The notes below the pieces were generated by a model. That model did no database searches. It worked only from the letters and a program-made list of their open reading frames with translations, and had not been told where the DNA came from. Below are positions 24,908 through 32,908 of a DNA stretch of 45,136 bases, piece by piece. The stretch is from positions 1 through 45,136 of the forward strand of contig CALUQL010000008.1 in assembly GCA_944322895.1 (NCBI GenBank). Reading direction: 5' to 3'. The translations under genes and the position numbers were made by a program. Position 1 is the first letter of the stretch; each line of letters opens with the position of its first letter. This stretch comes from Candidatus Gastranaerophilales bacterium (GTDB lineage: Bacteria > Cyanobacteriota > Vampirovibrionia > Gastranaerophilales > Gastranaerophilaceae).

Positions 24908-27367
24908 TTAAACCAATATTATTGGTATATTATTTTCTTTTGCCGTTTGCTTAATCTGATTATCTTTAATTGAAGAATTAATAAAATCCTTTTTAGACAT
25001 TACGACAGCTTCTATTTTCGGTTGGAAAACAACAACTTCGTTAATATAATCACCCTTATTTTTTGCAGCAAGCATATATTGGTGCATATTATCCAATGCT
25101 CTTGCTGTTTCTTCTGCGGAGATTATACGTCCTGACTTTAATTTTATATCTTTTAAACGTTCTTTTTTATCAAATTTATCTATTAAATCAAAAAATTCAT
25201 AATATTCTTCATCTGTTAAATTTAATTCTTTCTTTATAAAATTCGGAAGTTCAGTTCTAAAGTTTTTATTTCGTTTTGCTTCTGATTCATTTTTTCCTTG
25301 CATAAAAATATAAGTTTCAAAAACATCACGGCCTCTTTGCCCACCGGTACCTCCTACTTTCTTTCCTGCAAGAGCGATATCTGAATTTGAAGAATGAAGA
25401 ATAACACTGACCCCTGAATTATAGTTTGTACTTAAACCATAATTAACATTAAGCAGACTGGAACTTAAACATATTTCTTTACTATCATCACAAATTGCTG
25501 ATAATTCGTTTAAAGTACCATGCGAGCTATGGCATAAAAAGTTTAAATCTTTTACTTTTGTACCTTGAGCAAAACCGAATTCAGATAAATCCTTATCAGG
25601 ATTCGAAAAATCAAGATATTTCACCCCTTCAGCATCTTGTGGGAATTTTGATTTATCTACAGGTAAATTATCAGCGAAGATTGGAATACCATTTTTTCTT
25701 ATAAATTCAATATTACTGTTAATTTCATCAACAGTAGATTCATTTGCGGCATAGGTAAAACCTGCTGATTCTGCATCGGCTTTTGCTATAATTTGTGCTA
25801 TTTTAAAATCATTAAGATATCTATATGAAGCAGCTAAATCTTTGGCATTTGTGCCATCTGTAACCCAATGGCTATTTATAATTATATTATATATTCTTTT
25901 CTTCTCATCAGAATTTATCGGAAGTTTTTTTACAAGCTCTTTTGCAAAATAAGCAGAAGGTTTTGCATGTCCTTCATCGACCATTTTCTGCCTTTTTGCT
26001 ATATCATGAAACATTACAGATAAAAATAATATTCTGAATTCTTCTTTTGATAAAGTTTTTGTTTCAGGATTTTTAAGGCATAGTTGTAAGTCTTCAAGGG
26101 TATGTTTATCAATAGAATCACCTCTATGTTGGATTTTTCCGACAACGGAAATAAATTCAGGAAATACACGGATAAATTCGTTAAGAACTTCTTCGGCTAC
26201 TTTATCGTCTTTATTCAGAACAAATTCATTATTTGCAACAAAGTCATTAACATAAACACGTGTTTTGTTTATTGCGCTTTGAACATTTGCATTAAATTCA
26301 GATATATCCGAATTATTTGGAACAGGGAATTTAACAATATCATTTTCATTATCTATTTTAAATTGAAAATAATCAAAGACCTGTTTTCTATCATTAGGGT
26401 TTAAGTCTTTAATTACTGAATTAAAGTCTTGAATAAAACTATCACGAGAATATTTTAAAGGTAAACCTTTTTCATATTTAGATAAATCTAAATTGCCTAT
26501 AGTATTCTGTAGATTTTCAAAACAAAAAGTATCACTTTCAACAAAATGAGAAAGAGAATCTTGACTACATTCGATAAACTTAACAGGCTGATTTTTCATC
26601 CTAGCTTTCAGTTCAGATTGTAGTGCCGCATTTGAACCACATCTTTTGATATCATTTATCAGGTTAAGTTTTAATAAAGGATCATTTTCATTTAAAGAAT
26701 TTATATAATTTTCACAAAAATTATGTTTAAAATAGCGTATAAAATTAACTTGATTTGCTGTTGTCATAAAATCAAACTCATCATATTCACGAATAGATTT
26801 TAGCCCAAAATAAATCGTTTCCCAAATATCTGATGGTGTTTGAGCTCCATTCCAAACCGAATCTTCTTTGTATTTTAATTTCGCCATCTCATGTAAGGAT
26901 TTTAACATTTCAGGAGTAAGTTCTTCTATTTCTAAAAATATTGCAATATTAGAAAGTCTTACACTTTGTACCGAAAGTTTTGCTAAATTATCCTGATAAT
27001 ATTTAAACTTTCCTTCAACATTTGTATAATCAAGACGAGAAAGTTTTTTTATCAACTCTTTATTCTTTGAAATATCTTGCAAAGAAAAACCTGAGTCTAA
27101 AAACATTTTTGTTAGTTTTATTTCATTTACTTTTTGCCTGGCTTTTTCATCAATATTTGATTGTGTTATAGCTTGTGAAACTTTTTTTATAATTTGGGGT
27201 GTTATTCCTAAATATCCACGTAAACAATCAGCAGTATTGGATGCAATATTGTGGAAATCGTTATTAAAAGACGTTTTTTGTTCGACAGTTTTCCTATAAT
27301 CTTTTCCCACATTATCTTTTGGATTTGTAACAATTATGTTTTTAGTTAAATTTTGAATAACTTGCAT
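24908..27367 (-). CDS. Large HD-domain hypothetical protein
   Basis: From the ATG at 27367 (GGTGGT upstream) the protein has 819 residues. The in-frame ATG at 27418 has no such site. The first 380 residues are helical and unrecognised. An HD metal-dependent phosphohydrolase core follows: His422 in DKHTLEDL, HD at 454-455 in MFHDIAK, His500 in INSHW, and Asp531 in KADAESAG. The last third has a different, glycine-containing part (KVGGTGGQRGRDVFETYIFM) and a charged C-terminus. HD proteins hydrolyse nucleotides, cyclic dinucleotides or phosphoesters; the substrate is unknown. Its size and flanking domains are atypical for dGTPase or RelA/SpoT proteins. Confidence 0.65.
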   Translation of the reverse strand: MQVIQNLTKNIIVTNPKDNVGKDYRKTVEQKTSFNNDFHNIASNTADCLRGYLGITPQIIKKVSQAITQSNIDEKARQKVNEIKLTKMFLDSGFSLQDISKNKELIKKLSRLDYTNVEGKFKYYQDNLAKLSVQSVRLSNIAIFLEIEELTPEMLKSLHEMAKLKYKEDSVWNGAQTPSDIWETIYFGLKSIREYDEFDFMTTANQVNFIRYFKHNFCENYINSLNENDPLLKLNLINDIKRCGSNAALQSELKARMKNQPVKFIECSQDSLSHFVESDTFCFENLQNTIGNLDLSKYEKGLPLKYSRDSFIQDFNSVIKDLNPNDRKQVFDYFQFKIDNENDIVKFPVPNNSDISEFNANVQSAINKTRVYVNDFVANNEFVLNKDDKVAEEVLNEFIRVFPEFISVVGKIQHRGDSIDKHTLEDLQLCLKNPETKTLSKEEFRILFLSVMFHDIAKRQKMVDEGHAKPSAYFAKELVKKLPINSDEKKRIYNIIINSHWVTDGTNAKDLAASYRYLNDFKIAQIIAKADAESAGFTYAANESTVDEINSNIEFIRKNGIPIFADNLPVDKSKFPQDAEGVKYLDFSNPDKDLSEFGFAQGTKVKDLNFLCHSSHGTLNELSAICDDSKEICLSSSLLNVNYGLSTNYNSGVSVILHSSNSDIALAGKKVGGTGGQRGRDVFETYIFMQGKNESEAKRNKNFRTELPNFIKKELNLTDEEYYEFFDLIDKFDKKERLKDIKLKSGRIISAEETARALDNMHQYMLAAKNKGDYINEVVVFQPKIEAVVMSKKDFINSSIKDNQIKQTAKENNIPIILV

Positions 27368-27669
27368 TATTACCACCATAGTTGCTTTTGTGATATATAA
27401 AAAATCTAAACTTCTCAAATTGCCTAAAACAAATGAATTGTTTATAAAAATAAATATATTTTACTGCTCTGTATAAATTTTGAAAATTTTTAAAAGAGTT
27501 ATAAAAATACATTGTTGATTTTAAAAACTAATATTTAAAAGAATTATAATTAATTTGCTTCAAATTTTTTTCTAACTCAATAAATTCACCTTGTAAGTTA
27601 TTAGAATTTTTCTTTAGTATATCAATTATGTTTTCTATATCAGTTTTATAATATAAAATAAGGGCTATA
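27368..27669. other. Intergenic region between the HD-domain gene and the XRE gene
   Basis: 302 very AT-rich bases between divergent genes, presumably with both promoters, though I see no -35/-10 pair good enough to mark. On the minus strand 27531-27686 is open for 52 codons, encoding a hydrophobic stretch (KLIIALILYY) then a helical one, but without ATG, GTG or TTG. It partly overlaps the XRE gene, so I do not call it a gene. Confidence 0.5.
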
Positions 27670-27888
27670 ATGAGTTTTGAAAATTTTTATAAAAATTTAG
27701 GGAAAAGAATAAAACTGCTAAGAGAGGAAAGACATCTTACGCAAGAGAAACTTGCTGAATTAGCAGGCATAAGTTTAGATTATTTAGGTAAGATAGAGAT
27801 AAGCATAAACAGACCCGGGTTAATTACATTATTGAAAATAGCAAAAGCCCTTGATATCTCTATGGAAGAATTATTTAAAACATTATAA
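27670..27888 (+). CDS. XRE/Cro-C1 family DNA-binding regulator
   Basis: A 72-residue protein that is almost only a helix-turn-helix domain (HTH_3). KRIKLLREERHLTQEKLAEL forms helices 1-2, AGISLDYLGKIE the recognition helix, and LLKIAKALDISMEELF helices 4-5. AAGGG six bases before the ATG fits a ribosome binding site. It ends 14 bases before the first CRISPR repeat and points into the array. It could regulate its own promoter, the array or the cas operon, or be an unrelated small regulator. There is no effector domain or toxin partner. Confidence 0.85.
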   Translation: MSFENFYKNLGKRIKLLREERHLTQEKLAELAGISLDYLGKIEISINRPGLITLLKIAKALDISMEELFKTL

Positions 27889-27902
27889 TTCGGATTTTAA
27901 TT

Positions 27903-28400
27903 GTTTTGATTTTCTCTTAATTTAAAATATGTTATAATCAACTGATAAAGACAGTATATGGAGCATTTGTTTTGATTTTCTCTTAATTTAAAATATGTTA
28001 TAATAACAAGCAGAAGAACAAACATCGCAATATAGTTTTGATTTTCTCTTAATTTAAAATATGTTATAATCAAGAAATGGAAGATTGGGAGTTTAAAGTA
28101 GTTTTGATTTTCTCTTAATTTAAAATATGTTATAATTATCAGTTGAGCAAAAAGCAGAATTATTAAGTTTTGATTTTCTCTTAATTTAAAATATGTTATA
28201 ATAGGAATTGTGTACTGTTTTCTTGACATGTTGTTTTGATTTTCTCTTAATTTAAAATATGTTATAATTTGACATAATCGCCGTTTGTTTCAGAACATGT
28301 TTTGATTTTCTCTTAATTTAAAATATGTTATAATCTAGTGAGCTGTTTGAAATCTTCATAAATTGTTTTGATTTTCTCTTAATTTAAAATATGTTATAAT
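27903..28400 (+). CRISPR. Type II-C CRISPR array, 8 repeats and 7 spacers
   Basis: Eight identical 36-base repeats begin at 27903, 27969, 28035, 28101, 28167, 28233, 28299 and 28365. They start GTTTTGATTTTCTCTTAATT and end ATGTTATAAT. All seven spacers are exactly 30 bases and differ from one another. The plus strand is the crRNA sense: the repeat starts with GTTTT and the tracrRNA anti-repeat on the same strand is its complement. Every repeat ends in TGTTATAAT, a perfect extended -10, so transcription should start about seven bases into each spacer and leave about 24 guide bases. The array runs opposite to the cas genes. No long leader is visible: 14 bases separate it from the XRE gene. Confidence 0.98.
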
Positions 28401-28433
28401 AGGATATACAAAATAGATAAAATAATATATAAT
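28392..28433 (+). promoter_or_regulatory. tracrRNA promoter elements
   Basis: The last repeat ends in TGTTATAAT (28392-28400), which would start an RNA near 28407. A second perfect TATAAT at 28428-28433 would start one near 28440, at the first bases of the anti-repeat. Neither has a strong -35. Either or both could produce the tracrRNA. Confidence 0.5.
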
Positions 28434-28435
28434 AA

Positions 28436-28595
28436 CAAAGTAATATACTTTAAATTAAGAGACCAATCATAATTGACAGGAGAATAGTCGTTCCCTCTGT
28501 ATGGTAAATACACGTTATGCCTCATTCTCCAAACCTCTAAAACTTGTGACATTAGTATTTTAACTTAAAATCACCAAAATGTCATCTGTTTTTCT
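28436..28595 (+). ncRNA. tracrRNA for the II-C Cas9
   Basis: The anti-repeat occupies about 28446-28473. UUUAAAUUAAGAGA (28449-28462) pairs without a break with UCUCUUAAUUUAAA of the repeat. A small CCA/UU bulge follows, and AUCAUAAU pairs with GUUUUGAU of the repeat with one mismatch and one G-U. Downstream, GGAGAAT (28479-28485) and ATTCTCC (28524-28530) close a long stem with a small GTAT/ATAC hairpin inside. The last hairpin, TGACATT/AATGTCA (28547-28584), and a T-run end the RNA. The length is about 120-155 nt depending on the start used. It pairs with crRNA and is needed for Cas9 loading. Confidence 0.85.
28547..28594. terminator. Terminator shared by tracrRNA and the cas operon
   Basis: TGACATT (28547-28553) pairs with AATGTCA (28578-28584) around an inner ATTTT/AAAAT stem. 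On the plus strand a run of five T at 28590-28594 follows. On the minus strand TTTT follows, so it can also end cas2 transcription. The stem overlaps the last codons of cas2. Confidence 0.55.
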
Positions 28596-28918
28596 GTGTT
28601 TTCGCCCATTTGTTTTCTATATTTTGAAGAATTATAGTTTGCTTTTTCTATACATACAGAATTAGTCCATTGCCTATCTGTTAAATAAAAAATATTTATC
28701 TGACCTGTTGCAGGTGCAAGTGTTTTAACAAGTTTTATATATTGTTCTGTTTTATCATAAGTTACACAAGAACGCACATAAATTGAGTTTTGTAGCATAA
28801 AATAACCAAGTTTTAACAAATCTTTTCTAAAATTGTTTGCTTGTTTCCTTTCTTCATCATCAACAACAGGCAAATCGAAACATACAAATAACCAACCCAT
28901 ACGGTATTTACTCTTCAT
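28571..28918 (-). CDS. cas2: CRISPR-associated endonuclease Cas2
   Basis: The 115-residue protein has the ferredoxin-like Cas2 start MGWLFVCFDLPV with the conserved Asp15. RKDLLKLGYFMLQNSIYVR follows as helix 1 and strand 2, then GQINIFYLTDRQW. It bridges Cas1 dimers in the spacer-integration complex. The length and the FDLPV form are typical of type II loci. Its start overlaps the cas1 stop by 11 bases, and its stop is TGA. It converges on the tracrRNA. Confidence 0.97.
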   Translation of the reverse strand: MKSKYRMGWLFVCFDLPVVDDEERKQANNFRKDLLKLGYFMLQNSIYVRSCVTYDKTEQYIKLVKTLAPATGQINIFYLTDRQWTNSVCIEKANYNSSKYRKQMGENTEKQMTFW

Positions 28919-29858
28919 ATTCTCTATTCTTTTGCGTATCTTTGTGTAAATATTGTTCTTTTATATTTGGAAGAAAAATTTCGGAACAATCAAATAATGA
29001 AAATGAATTTGCTATTTCTTCTATATAAATATCAATTATATCTATAATTTTATAGCTATAATTTTTATGTTTAATTCTATAATCTTTTAAACAGTTAGGA
29101 ATAAATTTTATCCATTCTTGTATCTCTTCGTTTTCAAATTCAATAGAATAATTTTTTGAAAAATAATATAAGTATAAATCTATAAAAGCTCTAAATGGTT
29201 CTGTTAGATCATAAACTAAAGGTGTTGTTTTGTAATTACTTGTATGGTGTATTCCTAAATTAGGAAGTAGACCATGTACTAAAATTGAACGATAAATAAT
29301 TGTTTTTAATATTGCATATCCATAATTAAGACAAGCATTCTCAAAACTTTGGGCATTTTGATGTTCTCTTTTCATTGGTTCACTTAAATAGAAAAAGTAG
29401 TCTTGCCAGTATTTTTTTGCAATATTGGCTTCATTCATTAATGGTTTATTTATTAGATTATACAAATTATGTGTATCACAACCCATAAAATCTAATACCA
29501 TTGCTTGATTGAATGCTTTTTGCTTAACAATTTTTTTCCAAAGTTTTGTTGTAAATTCTTCATTTTGGCTAATTTGATTTTTAAAAACTTTTGTTTTAAC
29601 TATTCTAGCCAAAGGAACACTCCAGCCGATTGGTTGGAATGTTCTATCACAATGTTGTATAACAACATTATTTTTTAATAATGCTGCTATTGCGTTATTA
29701 GAAAATGAAACAGCAGGTGTACAAACTATAATTGCCTTTATATCATTAATTGGAAGTTTATATATTTCATTAGTTTTTTTTATTTCACAGAATAAAATAC
29801 CTTTATCTATTGAAATATAACTGCCTTGTTTTGTAATATGCAGAATATGGTAGCTCAT
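28908..29858 (-). CDS. cas1: CRISPR-associated integrase Cas1 (type II)
   Basis: The 316-residue Cas1 has a beta-sandwich N-terminus (ITKQGSYISIDKGILFCEI) and a helical catalytic part. Its metal ligands are the Glu of MNEANIAKKYW, the His of NLGIHHTS and the acidic pair of VYDLTEPFRAFID. It integrates new spacers into the array with Cas2. It starts 23 bases after the cas9 stop. The ribosome binding site is weak, so translation is probably coupled. All catalytic residues are kept, so adaptation should still work. Confidence 0.97.
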   Translation of the reverse strand: MSYHILHITKQGSYISIDKGILFCEIKKTNEIYKLPINDIKAIIVCTPAVSFSNNAIAALLKNNVVIQHCDRTFQPIGWSVPLARIVKTKVFKNQISQNEEFTTKLWKKIVKQKAFNQAMVLDFMGCDTHNLYNLINKPLMNEANIAKKYWQDYFFYLSEPMKREHQNAQSFENACLNYGYAILKTIIYRSILVHGLLPNLGIHHTSNYKTTPLVYDLTEPFRAFIDLYLYYFSKNYSIEFENEEIQEWIKFIPNCLKDYRIKHKNYSYKIIDIIDIYIEEIANSFSLFDCSEIFLPNIKEQYLHKDTQKNREYEE

Positions 29859-29881: not shown

Positions 29882-32800
29882 CTAAAAATCAACGATTTTT
29901 CTGAATTGTGCTTCTGTTAAATACTTAGTACTTGAAAGAATCTTTTTACCATTATTATCTTCAATTTCTACAGGACCATTACTCCATATTGAATTAAGCT
30001 TATATTTACCTTTTTCATAGAATAAAGAACCTGCTTTGAAATTATTGGGGATATAAATTAAACAGCCCGAAGAGAACATTTCTCCGCCATTGTATAATTT
30101 ACAACCCATTTCCATAAGATTTTCTCTTACTTCTTTAGTCGATTTATTTGCATAAACAGGCATAACCTTGATATTACCTTTAGCATCATAATAAAGAATT
30201 TGCCCTTTATGTCCTTTTGAACGCTTAAATTGACCTTTTGTTCCTTTTGTTCCAAAATCAACAAAAGAATCAAAACGCTCACGACCATTTAAATCATTCG
30301 TCAATTGTGCATTGCAATCAATTTTTGTTCGTACTTTCTTTATTTTAGTCTTTTTCGTCGGATGAATATATGTTGATAACATTTTTAACCATTCATCTTC
30401 AGATAAATTATCATTTAACTTGCTTATAAGATTTTCTCGAATAATCGGGTCTAATATCTTCTCTATCTTTTTTTTATCTTTTTTAATTTCTATTATTTCT
30501 ATTCTTTCTGTAAGACAATAATTACCATTAAACATTCTTTTTCCGTAATATGTTTCTTTTGGTCTTAGTTCTGATTTTAATGGTTTCCTATGTGTATAAG
30601 GATATGGCATTAACTCCATGATTTTTTCTTCTACTTGAGGACGATTAAATCCTTTTATTGAATATCTTCTTGTTTCTTCATCCAATTTATATTCACGTGC
30701 AAAACTTATACAGATTGCATCTAATGCATGATGTTTTGGGTTTGTTCTGTTTTTCTTTTCATCATCACCCAAAAGCGAATTTAAACTGTATGTTCTTCTT
30801 ATTTTTGCTGTAGTTGACCCATTTTCAACGTATACATGACGTTCATCCCCTTTTGTTTGCATGCCCCAACCGCAAATATAATGGGTTATTGCACTTGCTA
30901 CTTTCGCAACTTGTGCGGTTTCTGCTAAACCATTATAACTATCTATTAACTTTGCACATTTATCTGGTGGAAGTACAAGCAAGTCTGCTTTTTTCTTACC
31001 TAATCTTGGTCTTAAATTCGTTATTCTTGTATTAAACTCTTCCCATCGTGATTTATTTGTATATAACCACTCATATGGAGTTCTGCCTGCTTTATCTTGA
31101 TTCTCTTTCTTATAGCATACAACTTTATTATATAAGGCGTCATTACCACCTATACTTCTTGGATAAATATGATCTATCTCACATAGTGGATATTCAGCCG
31201 GTGAAATTCTATCTCCGCTATATATACATTTAAAATCTTGCATTTTAGCTAATTTATGCATTAAAAAATATTGTTTTGGATTACAATTGTGTTCTTCCAG
31301 TTCTTTTATTAATTGTTCGTTTTCCTTTTCCTGACTTTTCATATATTTTGCTGTATCATTTGCTTTAATACTTCCGAATAATGAATTATCAGCCCCATCT
31401 CGCACAAATTCAAAGATAACTTCATCAGGTTTCCCATTATCATATATTAATGAATTTAAGAGATTTTTAAATATTTGTAATCTGTTTCTTACAACAGGAT
31501 TTGTAATATTACCTATTAAAATATCACTTTTTATTTCAGCATTTTTCGACTCTTGTGCTAACTCATCACGATTATCACCAATAAAAAGATTATTCCAATC
31601 ACCAATTTTGGATAACATTGTTTGAATTTCTTCTTTTGTTATTCCATTTTTAGTACCTTCTTTATCTGCATATTTAGAAGCATCAATTTCATGTGGATGT
31701 AATCCTGACGTTATAATGTCTATCATTATTTGACAAGCTCGTCTGCAAAAGCTTGAACGTCCTGAAATATTTGCCTTTAAAGTTTCAACTTCATTTTTTT
31801 TGAATTTTTGACCAACTACTTTTTCTATATCTGTTTTAGGTATTGAAAATGTTGCTGTTGACTTTATTCCTTTCCTCAAGTCTGTTAGATTTTTAGCCCA
31901 CTCTACAACCTTTTTGTCATATATTTCTTTTATTTCGTAAGGTGCTAATCTTCTTTGTTCTAATGTAGTATCATCTATAAATTTAATATTCTTTAACTGC
32001 ATTAAAAGAACTAAAGAAATATGCTCGATACTATCAGCACTACACACATTTCTTTTAGGAAGTAGTCTGCATTTTGCAATTACTCTATTATTAAATCTTG
32101 GAATTTTTTGACCTAATACACCTTGCCAGTCTTTTTCTGTGCCGCGGTATTGTATCCACTCAGGATTATGATATGATGCATAAGCTTCTCTATAATCTCC
32201 ATATAGAAATTCATCTATGGTAATATCTTGTATTTGAGGTATTTGTTTTTTTGCTTCTTCCCATAATTTTGAAAGTTCTTTAACCACTAATTCTCGAGGA
32301 GTTACTCTTCCTGCTTTTCTTACTTTTTCAGGATTTAAACCAATACATCTTTTTAATTCATTAGGATTATTTTCACTCCATAAACCAAGGAGTAAAGCAT
32401 CATAATAACAAGGATATTTATATTCATCTGATAGAATAAGTTCAATACCATCAATGCAAGAATATTTTTTGATTGCTTCTTCATTTTCTTTATCGTCATC
32501 TGATGTAGCCCAAGCAATATTATTATCATAACCTCTTCTTTGAATTGCATTGTGCAATGCTTTATAAATTTGCCATTCTTCTAATTTACGACCTTGAATC
32601 AGTGCAATACGTAATAATGTAGAATTATATATAGTATTATCATTTTTTTGAGCAAATTCTTTTTTAAACTTTTCATCAGTTTCTTCTAATGGTTTTAAAC
32701 CTCTGCTAATCCATAAATTTTTAAACCAAAGTTCTCTTGCCCTATGTGCTTGTATTGTTCTATAAGTTCTTCTTCTTGCTCTATTATCTACAACTGAAGC

Positions 32801-32908
32801 GTGGTCTTTATCTATAATTATTGAACCAATATCTTTAATTTCAAAATCTTCTCTTACGCAATAACCTATACTTGCTTTCCCCATATCAAATGCAAAAACT
32901 TTTTTCAT
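29882..32908 (-). CDS. cas9: Cas9, compact type II-C RNA-guided nuclease
   Basis: From the ATG at 32908 the protein has 1008 residues, within the small II-C range. RuvC-I is VFAFDMGKASIGY with Asp8. The arginine-rich bridge helix NRARRRTYRTIQAHRAR spans about 42-58. RuvC-II is VIFEFVRD with Glu500. HNH is CEIDHIYPRS with catalytic His580 (Asp579, Asn603). RuvC-III is HHALDA with His727 and Asp730. Both nuclease centres are therefore intact. The C-terminal 200 residues should form the PAM-interacting domain. AAAGGGAT lies five bases before this ATG. The in-frame start at 32986 adds 26 residues lying over the promoter and is rejected. With only cas1 and cas2 alongside, this is type II-C. The PAM is unknown. 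Confidence 0.97.
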   Translation of the reverse strand: MKKVFAFDMGKASIGYCVREDFEIKDIGSIIIDKDHASVVDNRARRRTYRTIQAHRARELWFKNLWISRGLKPLEETDEKFKKEFAQKNDNTIYNSTLLRIALIQGRKLEEWQIYKALHNAIQRRGYDNNIAWATSDDDKENEEAIKKYSCIDGIELILSDEYKYPCYYDALLLGLWSENNPNELKRCIGLNPEKVRKAGRVTPRELVVKELSKLWEEAKKQIPQIQDITIDEFLYGDYREAYASYHNPEWIQYRGTEKDWQGVLGQKIPRFNNRVIAKCRLLPKRNVCSADSIEHISLVLLMQLKNIKFIDDTTLEQRRLAPYEIKEIYDKKVVEWAKNLTDLRKGIKSTATFSIPKTDIEKVVGQKFKKNEVETLKANISGRSSFCRRACQIMIDIITSGLHPHEIDASKYADKEGTKNGITKEEIQTMLSKIGDWNNLFIGDNRDELAQESKNAEIKSDILIGNITNPVVRNRLQIFKNLLNSLIYDNGKPDEVIFEFVRDGADNSLFGSIKANDTAKYMKSQEKENEQLIKELEEHNCNPKQYFLMHKLAKMQDFKCIYSGDRISPAEYPLCEIDHIYPRSIGGNDALYNKVVCYKKENQDKAGRTPYEWLYTNKSRWEEFNTRITNLRPRLGKKKADLLVLPPDKCAKLIDSYNGLAETAQVAKVASAITHYICGWGMQTKGDERHVYVENGSTTAKIRRTYSLNSLLGDDEKKNRTNPKHHALDAICISFAREYKLDEETRRYSIKGFNRPQVEEKIMELMPYPYTHRKPLKSELRPKETYYGKRMFNGNYCLTERIEIIEIKKDKKKIEKILDPIIRENLISKLNDNLSEDEWLKMLSTYIHPTKKTKIKKVRTKIDCNAQLTNDLNGRERFDSFVDFGTKGTKGQFKRSKGHKGQILYYDAKGNIKVMPVYANKSTKEVRENLMEMGCKLYNGGEMFSSGCLIYIPNNFKAGSLFYEKGKYKLNSIWSNGPVEIEDNNGKKILSSTKYLTEAQFRKIVDF

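Follow-up and report, generated by a model that had tools for sequence, protein, structure and literature searches.

How does a CRISPR array produce its guides when every repeat ends in what looks like a complete promoter element? This question is raised by a type II locus of Candidatus Gastranaerophilales bacterium (contig CALUQL010000008.1), in which all repeats close with TGTTATAAT, an exact match to the extended -10 consensus TGnTATAAT. A sequence-only reading had proposed that these repeats carry their own promoters, in the style of type II-C systems. Our follow-up supports this view: given that TATAAT is invariant in related arrays and retained in their decayed first repeats, we put the probability that repeat-embedded promoters and the II-C-type expression scheme as a whole apply here at roughly 87%.

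Array layout and chance expectation

The window, that is, the whole stretch of 45,136 nt that was analyzed, has an A+T content of 71% (29% GC) and belongs to a genome of 2.15 Mb. It contains the following features:

27670..27888, plus strand: 72-aa XRE/HTH_3 regulator (PF01381)
27903..28400, plus strand: CRISPR array, 8 identical 36-nt repeats and 7 spacers (exact search)
27910..27915 in repeat 1 and likewise in each repeat, plus strand: TTTTCT, proposed -35, not conserved in related repeats and decaying in first repeats
27930..27938, plus strand: putative extended -10 TGTTATAAT of repeat 1 (exact search), TATAAT being invariant in related arrays
28401..28440, plus strand: leader at the 3' end of the array (alignment of 26 loci)
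28437..28560, plus strand: tracrRNA with predicted ends (alignment and consensus fold, 26 loci)
28441..28469, plus strand: tracrRNA anti-repeat, pairing with repeat positions 5-33 (inverted repeat, covariation)
28571..28918, minus strand: cas2 (TIGR01573, 58.8 bits)
28908..29858, minus strand: cas1, type II (TIGR03639, 160.9 bits)
29882..32908, minus strand: cas9, 1008 aa (NF049971 Cas9d, 1098.7 bits against a cut-off of 375; TIGR01865, 253.3 bits)

An exact search of the window recovered eight copies of the 36-nt unit GTTTTGATTTTCTCTTAATTTAAAATATGTTATAAT, starting at 27903, 27969, 28035, 28101, 28167, 28233, 28299, and 28365, with the final copy closing the array at 28400. Each of the seven spacers has a length of 30 nt. 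In each copy, TGTTATAAT occupies repeat positions 28-36, the exact 3' end (starts in repeats 2-8: 27996, 28062, 28128, 28194, 28260, 28326, and 28392), while TTTTCT occupies positions 8-13 and is separated from TATAAT by 17 nt. The arrangement first described for the array, eight repeats ending in an exact TGnTATAAT with TTTTCT 17 bases upstream, is thereby confirmed. Spacers 1 and 4 begin with nine bases that are reverse complements of each other (CAACTGATA at 27939-27947 and TATCAGTTG at 28137-28145); joined at the shared nine bases they give a 51-nt sequence with an open frame, as would be expected if overlapping protospacers on opposite strands had been captured. Exact searches of viral contigs with the final 24 nt of each spacer and with the joined spacers 1 and 4 returned no target, and a similarity search of 41 genomes of the genus found nothing for spacers 1, 2, and 4 outside the array. 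As no spacer target was found, no PAM was derived.

Because the eight copies are identical, they constitute one observation rather than eight. With the repeat's own composition, the chance that a 36-mer ends in TGNTATAAT is ~2e-4, and the chance that it contains this pattern anywhere is ~0.6%. TATAAT-like strings are common in a window of 71% A+T, which speaks against a promoter reading; outside the array the window holds 4 sites of TGNTATAAT, with ~6.6 expected in all under a first-order model, and the genome-wide count of 366 for TGNTATAAT is a modest excess over the 277 found for the reversed pattern. Taken by itself, the single locus is suggestive of a promoter, and it is the comparison with relatives, not this one locus, that gives the repeat-end element its significance. 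Host promoters show a TATAAT peak 20-40 nt before start codons (139 upstream regions), with few TG sites. The genome encodes RpoD with the region 3.0 motif RIPVHMVETINK; in E. coli sigma70, TG is recognized by residues of this motif. The base composition of 456 spacers showed no purine peak at spacer positions 6-8, around the predicted start; such a peak is expected to be missing from foreign DNA, so that this result says nothing for or against starts within spacers.

Conservation and decay of the repeat in related arrays

A Cas9 relative scoring above the NF049971 cut-off is encoded by 14 of 386 genomes from the phylum and by 38 of 383 from the family. Scanning named genomes, we obtained 39 loci, of which 35 (L064-L098) fall into the Cas9 group of the window and four (L099-L102) carry distant Cas9s. 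We compared 30 arrays including that of the window, plus one further array (L044), yielding 31 arrays from Gastranaerophilales and one termite symbiont; at the remaining loci of the Cas9 group, the array finder recognized no array. TATAAT stands at the exact repeat end in 31/31 arrays, including that of Candidatus Termititenax (L089), and the TG of the extended -10 is present in 29 (exceptions: L044, AAGTTATAAT; L078, ATATTATAAT). In a second, distant Cas9 group of the same phylum (L054-L063), repeats also end in TATAAT, partly without TG at the extended position. The window corresponding to the proposed -35 (positions 8-13) is not conserved: TTTTCT, TTTACT, and TTCACT all occur, as does CTTACC in Termititenax.

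Several individual relatives deserve mention. An identical Cas9 is found in a record of Candidatus Avigastranaerophilus faecigallinarum (L064), and the host of the window is thus very probably a member of Gastranaerophilales living in an animal gut. In one relative with a cas9 broken by an in-frame stop, the array is reduced to two copies, with TATAAT still at the end (L051:4095-9052). Candidatus Termititenax aidoneus (L089:1-22982) has a Cas9 of the same type (51% identity) and an array of 70 repeats ending in TGTTATAAT, a distribution that suggests transfer between phyla.

Where related arrays contain a clearly degenerate repeat copy, it is always the 5'-most unit, which marks the 5' end as the oldest; other units are unchanged except for a single base in one array (L069, copy 8 of 44). 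The array of the window, in which repeat 1 is intact and no copy has decayed, differs in this respect from most relatives. In 27 arrays whose upstream DNA could be read (21 from this Cas9 group and 6 from the distant group), we scored the unit upstream of the first perfect repeat half by half, each half against shuffles. The 3' half was recognizable in 20/27 and the 5' half in 9/27; the 3' half alone was kept in 11 arrays and the 5' half alone in none (10 vs 0 when a related pair is counted once; sign test, P = 0.002). In 14 decayed copies, mismatch rates were 43% at positions 1-7, 50% at positions 8-13, and 39% at positions 14-18, compared to 10% at positions 19-27, 5% in TGn, and 1% in TATAAT, and a circular-shift null gave P ~1e-4 for the low rate in the last 9 nt. 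The register of these 14 copies was set partly by suffix matches, which favors the 3' end, whereas the half-by-half test is free of this bias.

No real guide depends on tracrRNA binding by the first repeat, whereas transcription of spacer 1 has to begin from it, and the pattern of decay thus fits an oldest repeat that is kept only as the promoter of this spacer. The tracrRNA-binding half and the supposed -35 are lost, while TATAAT is retained. TTTTCT had been put forward as a weak -35; given that it varies among relatives and lies in one of the most decayed parts of first repeats, it is probably not a functional -35, and the comparison suggests that the working promoter comprises the last 9-18 bases of the repeat, without a -35. 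Mutations in the additional repeats of II-C arrays have likewise been located mostly in the first 15 nt, and promoter function has been suggested as the property requiring retention (Feussner et al.; PMC12080349).

The main remaining rival to a promoter-based explanation of the decay is erosion from the outside without selection, which would also strike the 5' half first and would make the decay uninformative on promoters. The 5' half is indeed the outer half of a first repeat, in some arrays (L072, L094, L096) its replacement has the look of a sharp breakpoint, and arrays eroded past the -10 would escape recognition. However, no recognized remnant has its break inside the -10, retained lengths are mostly ~10-22 nt, and scattered point changes (L092, L059, L091) also nearly always spare TATAAT. 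We consider unselected erosion improbable and selection on the promoter half the better account of these first repeats.

Leader, tracrRNA, and the proposed expression mode

The region following the last repeat is conserved. In the window, as in most of the 26 aligned loci, the leader opens with AGGATATACAAA; its core GGATATACAA is invariant in 26/26, and most loci have a TATAAT-type promoter ~28 nt beyond the last repeat, followed by the anti-repeat. In the window, a promoter scan placed this tracrRNA promoter at 28405-28433 (TATACA-17-TATAAT), inside the leader. The consensus fold includes a conserved tracrRNA hairpin at ~28480-28531, and Rfam returned no match for 27300-29000. In the repeat:anti-repeat duplex, RNAalifold detected changes on both sides at positions 11 (13 sequences), 14 (10), 15 (2), and 18 (2). 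This covariation assigns the crRNA to the plus strand, in keeping with the orientation of the -10.

The anti-repeat pairs with, among others, repeat positions 26-28 and 30-33, and pairing of positions 30-33 is thus a second possible cause for part of the TATAAT conservation. Together with the last repeat abutting the invariant leader core, this pairing could indicate that the repeat 3' end is conserved for tracrRNA pairing, or for integration by Cas1-Cas2 at the repeat end facing the leader, and not for transcription. We give this explanation hardly any credence: the oldest repeat is leader-distal and does not serve for integration, but it is the 3' half that it retains; this half is of little use for pairing once the 5' half is gone; and positions 34-36 are invariant though unpaired.

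At the other end of the array, only 14 bases separate the stop codon of the XRE gene from repeat 1, and this lack of room for a leader had been taken as an argument for internal promoters. This argument does not hold, as the conserved leader lies 3' of the array and the XRE gene was not found beside related arrays; it is probably unrelated to the array. II-C arrays gain spacers at the last repeat (PMC12080349), and together with the conserved 3' flank this makes the short gap before repeat 1 uninformative on promoters. By analogy, we infer that acquisition occurs at the last repeat here as well.

The XRE gene is also central to a further alternative, in which its promoter drives one long pre-crRNA that is cut by RNase III and tracrRNA, the TATAAT ends being a by-product of A+T richness. 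The gene lies on the same strand, no terminator was found between it and repeat 1, and a weak promoter (TTAAAA-18-TATAAT) is present at 27521-27550. Read-through may add to internal starts, but it leaves unexplained why TATAAT is invariant where repeats otherwise vary and is retained in first repeats that have otherwise decayed; moreover, related arrays lack the XRE gene. A single long precursor is therefore very unlikely as the sole source of crRNAs. Such a transcript had been named as the observation that would overturn internal initiation, which is too strict, since transcription from upstream does not preclude internal starts. With repeat 1 intact and no terminator found after the XRE gene (27870-27938), read-through could yield an extraneous crRNA.

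For transcription from within the repeats, we propose the following sequence of events. The primary sigma factor would read TGTTATAAT at each repeat end without needing a -35, and transcription would start ~7 bases into the next spacer, leaving a crRNA of ~24 guide nucleotides followed by the next repeat; both values agree with those first predicted and are supported as predictions. The repeat portion would pair with the tracrRNA encoded directly downstream of the array, and RNase III would probably trim the 3' side of the crRNA. New spacers would enter at the last repeat, beside the 3' leader, and embedded promoters make sense in this configuration because the newest spacers are the furthest from any upstream promoter. 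RNase III had been thought potentially dispensable for 5' ends; the enzyme is encoded in the genome and the repeat:tracrRNA duplex covaries, so that it probably still makes the 3' ends, as in C. jejuni.

The tracrRNA is directly behind the array and co-directional with it, and the segment from spacer 7 through repeat 8 and the leader to the tracrRNA (28341-28560) can form one continuous fold resembling a single-guide RNA (z -2.36). A transcript started in the second-last repeat might hence extend through the newest spacer, repeat 8, and the leader to the tracrRNA and act as a natural single-guide RNA, a reading that we regard as unlikely. If it were true, and if spacers enter at the last repeat, this RNA would always carry the newest spacer and could privilege it, and initiation from repeat 8 itself would additionally yield a long tracrRNA.

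Subtype and relation to known systems

The cas genes of the locus are cas9, cas1, and cas2 only; no frame suitable for csn2 was present between or beside them, and no cas4 was detected in the genome (93% complete) at E 0.001. The array is convergent to the cas genes, the 5'-most repeat is the oldest in relatives, and the conserved flank adjoins the last repeat, all of which correspond to the II-C layout. A profile built from 14 Cas9 relatives best matched solved chains of 1055-1154-aa Cas9s (Nme/Geo-type) at ~100 bits, among them 6jdq, which we take to be NmeCas9. The same profile matched the MG34-1 Cas9d structures (9AUF, 8W2Z, 8W2S; PMC11706934) in the HNH part only, weakly, at ~41 bits. The definition of type II-D includes cas4 in the adaptation module and a II-D branch of Cas1 (PMC12669027), and assignment of the locus to type II-D was not adopted, on gene content (no cas4) and structure matches. 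Its genes and the arrangement of its array lead us to regard the locus as II-C, the placement of the Cas9 itself being tentative. NCBIfam names this Cas9 Cas9d, a name it has in common with type II-D systems although no cas4 was found here (PMC9755519, PMC11706934, PMC12669027). NF049971 may thus mix II-C-like and II-D proteins, its label covering loci without the cas4 of type II-D.

Repeat-embedded promoters have been reported for type II-C generally (PMC12080349, PMC4607530), and a survey of 132 genomes described II-C arrays that are convergent, have a decayed proximal repeat, and carry a sigma70 -10 in the 3' ends of their repeats (PMC4607530). The system of Campylobacter jejuni shares with the window a -10 box closing each repeat, a convergent array, three cas genes (PMC3656092, PMC4607530), and a tracrRNA downstream of the array (PMC4607530). 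Its crRNA starts have been mapped to promoters in the repeats and lie within spacers, whereas those of the window are predicted from sequence, and RNase III makes its crRNA 3' ends (PMC3656092); C. jejuni-type repeats end in TGGTAAAAT (PMC4607530), while the -10 of the window is the exact consensus. In Neisseria meningitidis and N. lactamica, a repeat-end extended -10 and initiation within each repeat unit are likewise described, as far as the citing article relates (Zhang et al. 2013, cited in PMC7038990), although the N. lactamica repeat ends in TGCTACAAT, unlike that of the window (PMC4607530). In Clostridium cellulolyticum H10, the last nine repeat bases resemble an extended -10, the array is opposite to the cas genes as in the window, and crRNAs observed in E. 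coli contain 23-26 guide nucleotides; its tracrRNA is located upstream of the cas genes, whereas that of the window adjoins the array (PMC7038990). The suggestion that the -10 of the window is stronger than those known was mistaken, given that repeats ending in a perfect TGCTATAAT have been published for H. parainfluenzae and C. perfringens (PMC4607530) and that the Geobacillus LC300 repeat ends in TGGTATAAT (PMC8100143).

The mode as such, including perfect TGnTATAAT repeats, is therefore already published for type II-C. New here are the lineage, a literature search having found no publication on CRISPR in Gastranaerophilales, the evidence from first-repeat decay, and the dismissal of the arguments based on the -35 and on the leader. 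The decay provides comparative evidence, independent of RNA data, for selection on the promoter half of the repeat, and the findings would add Gastranaerophilales, which are relatives of cyanobacteria from the gut, and a termite symbiont to the lineages with self-transcribing repeats.
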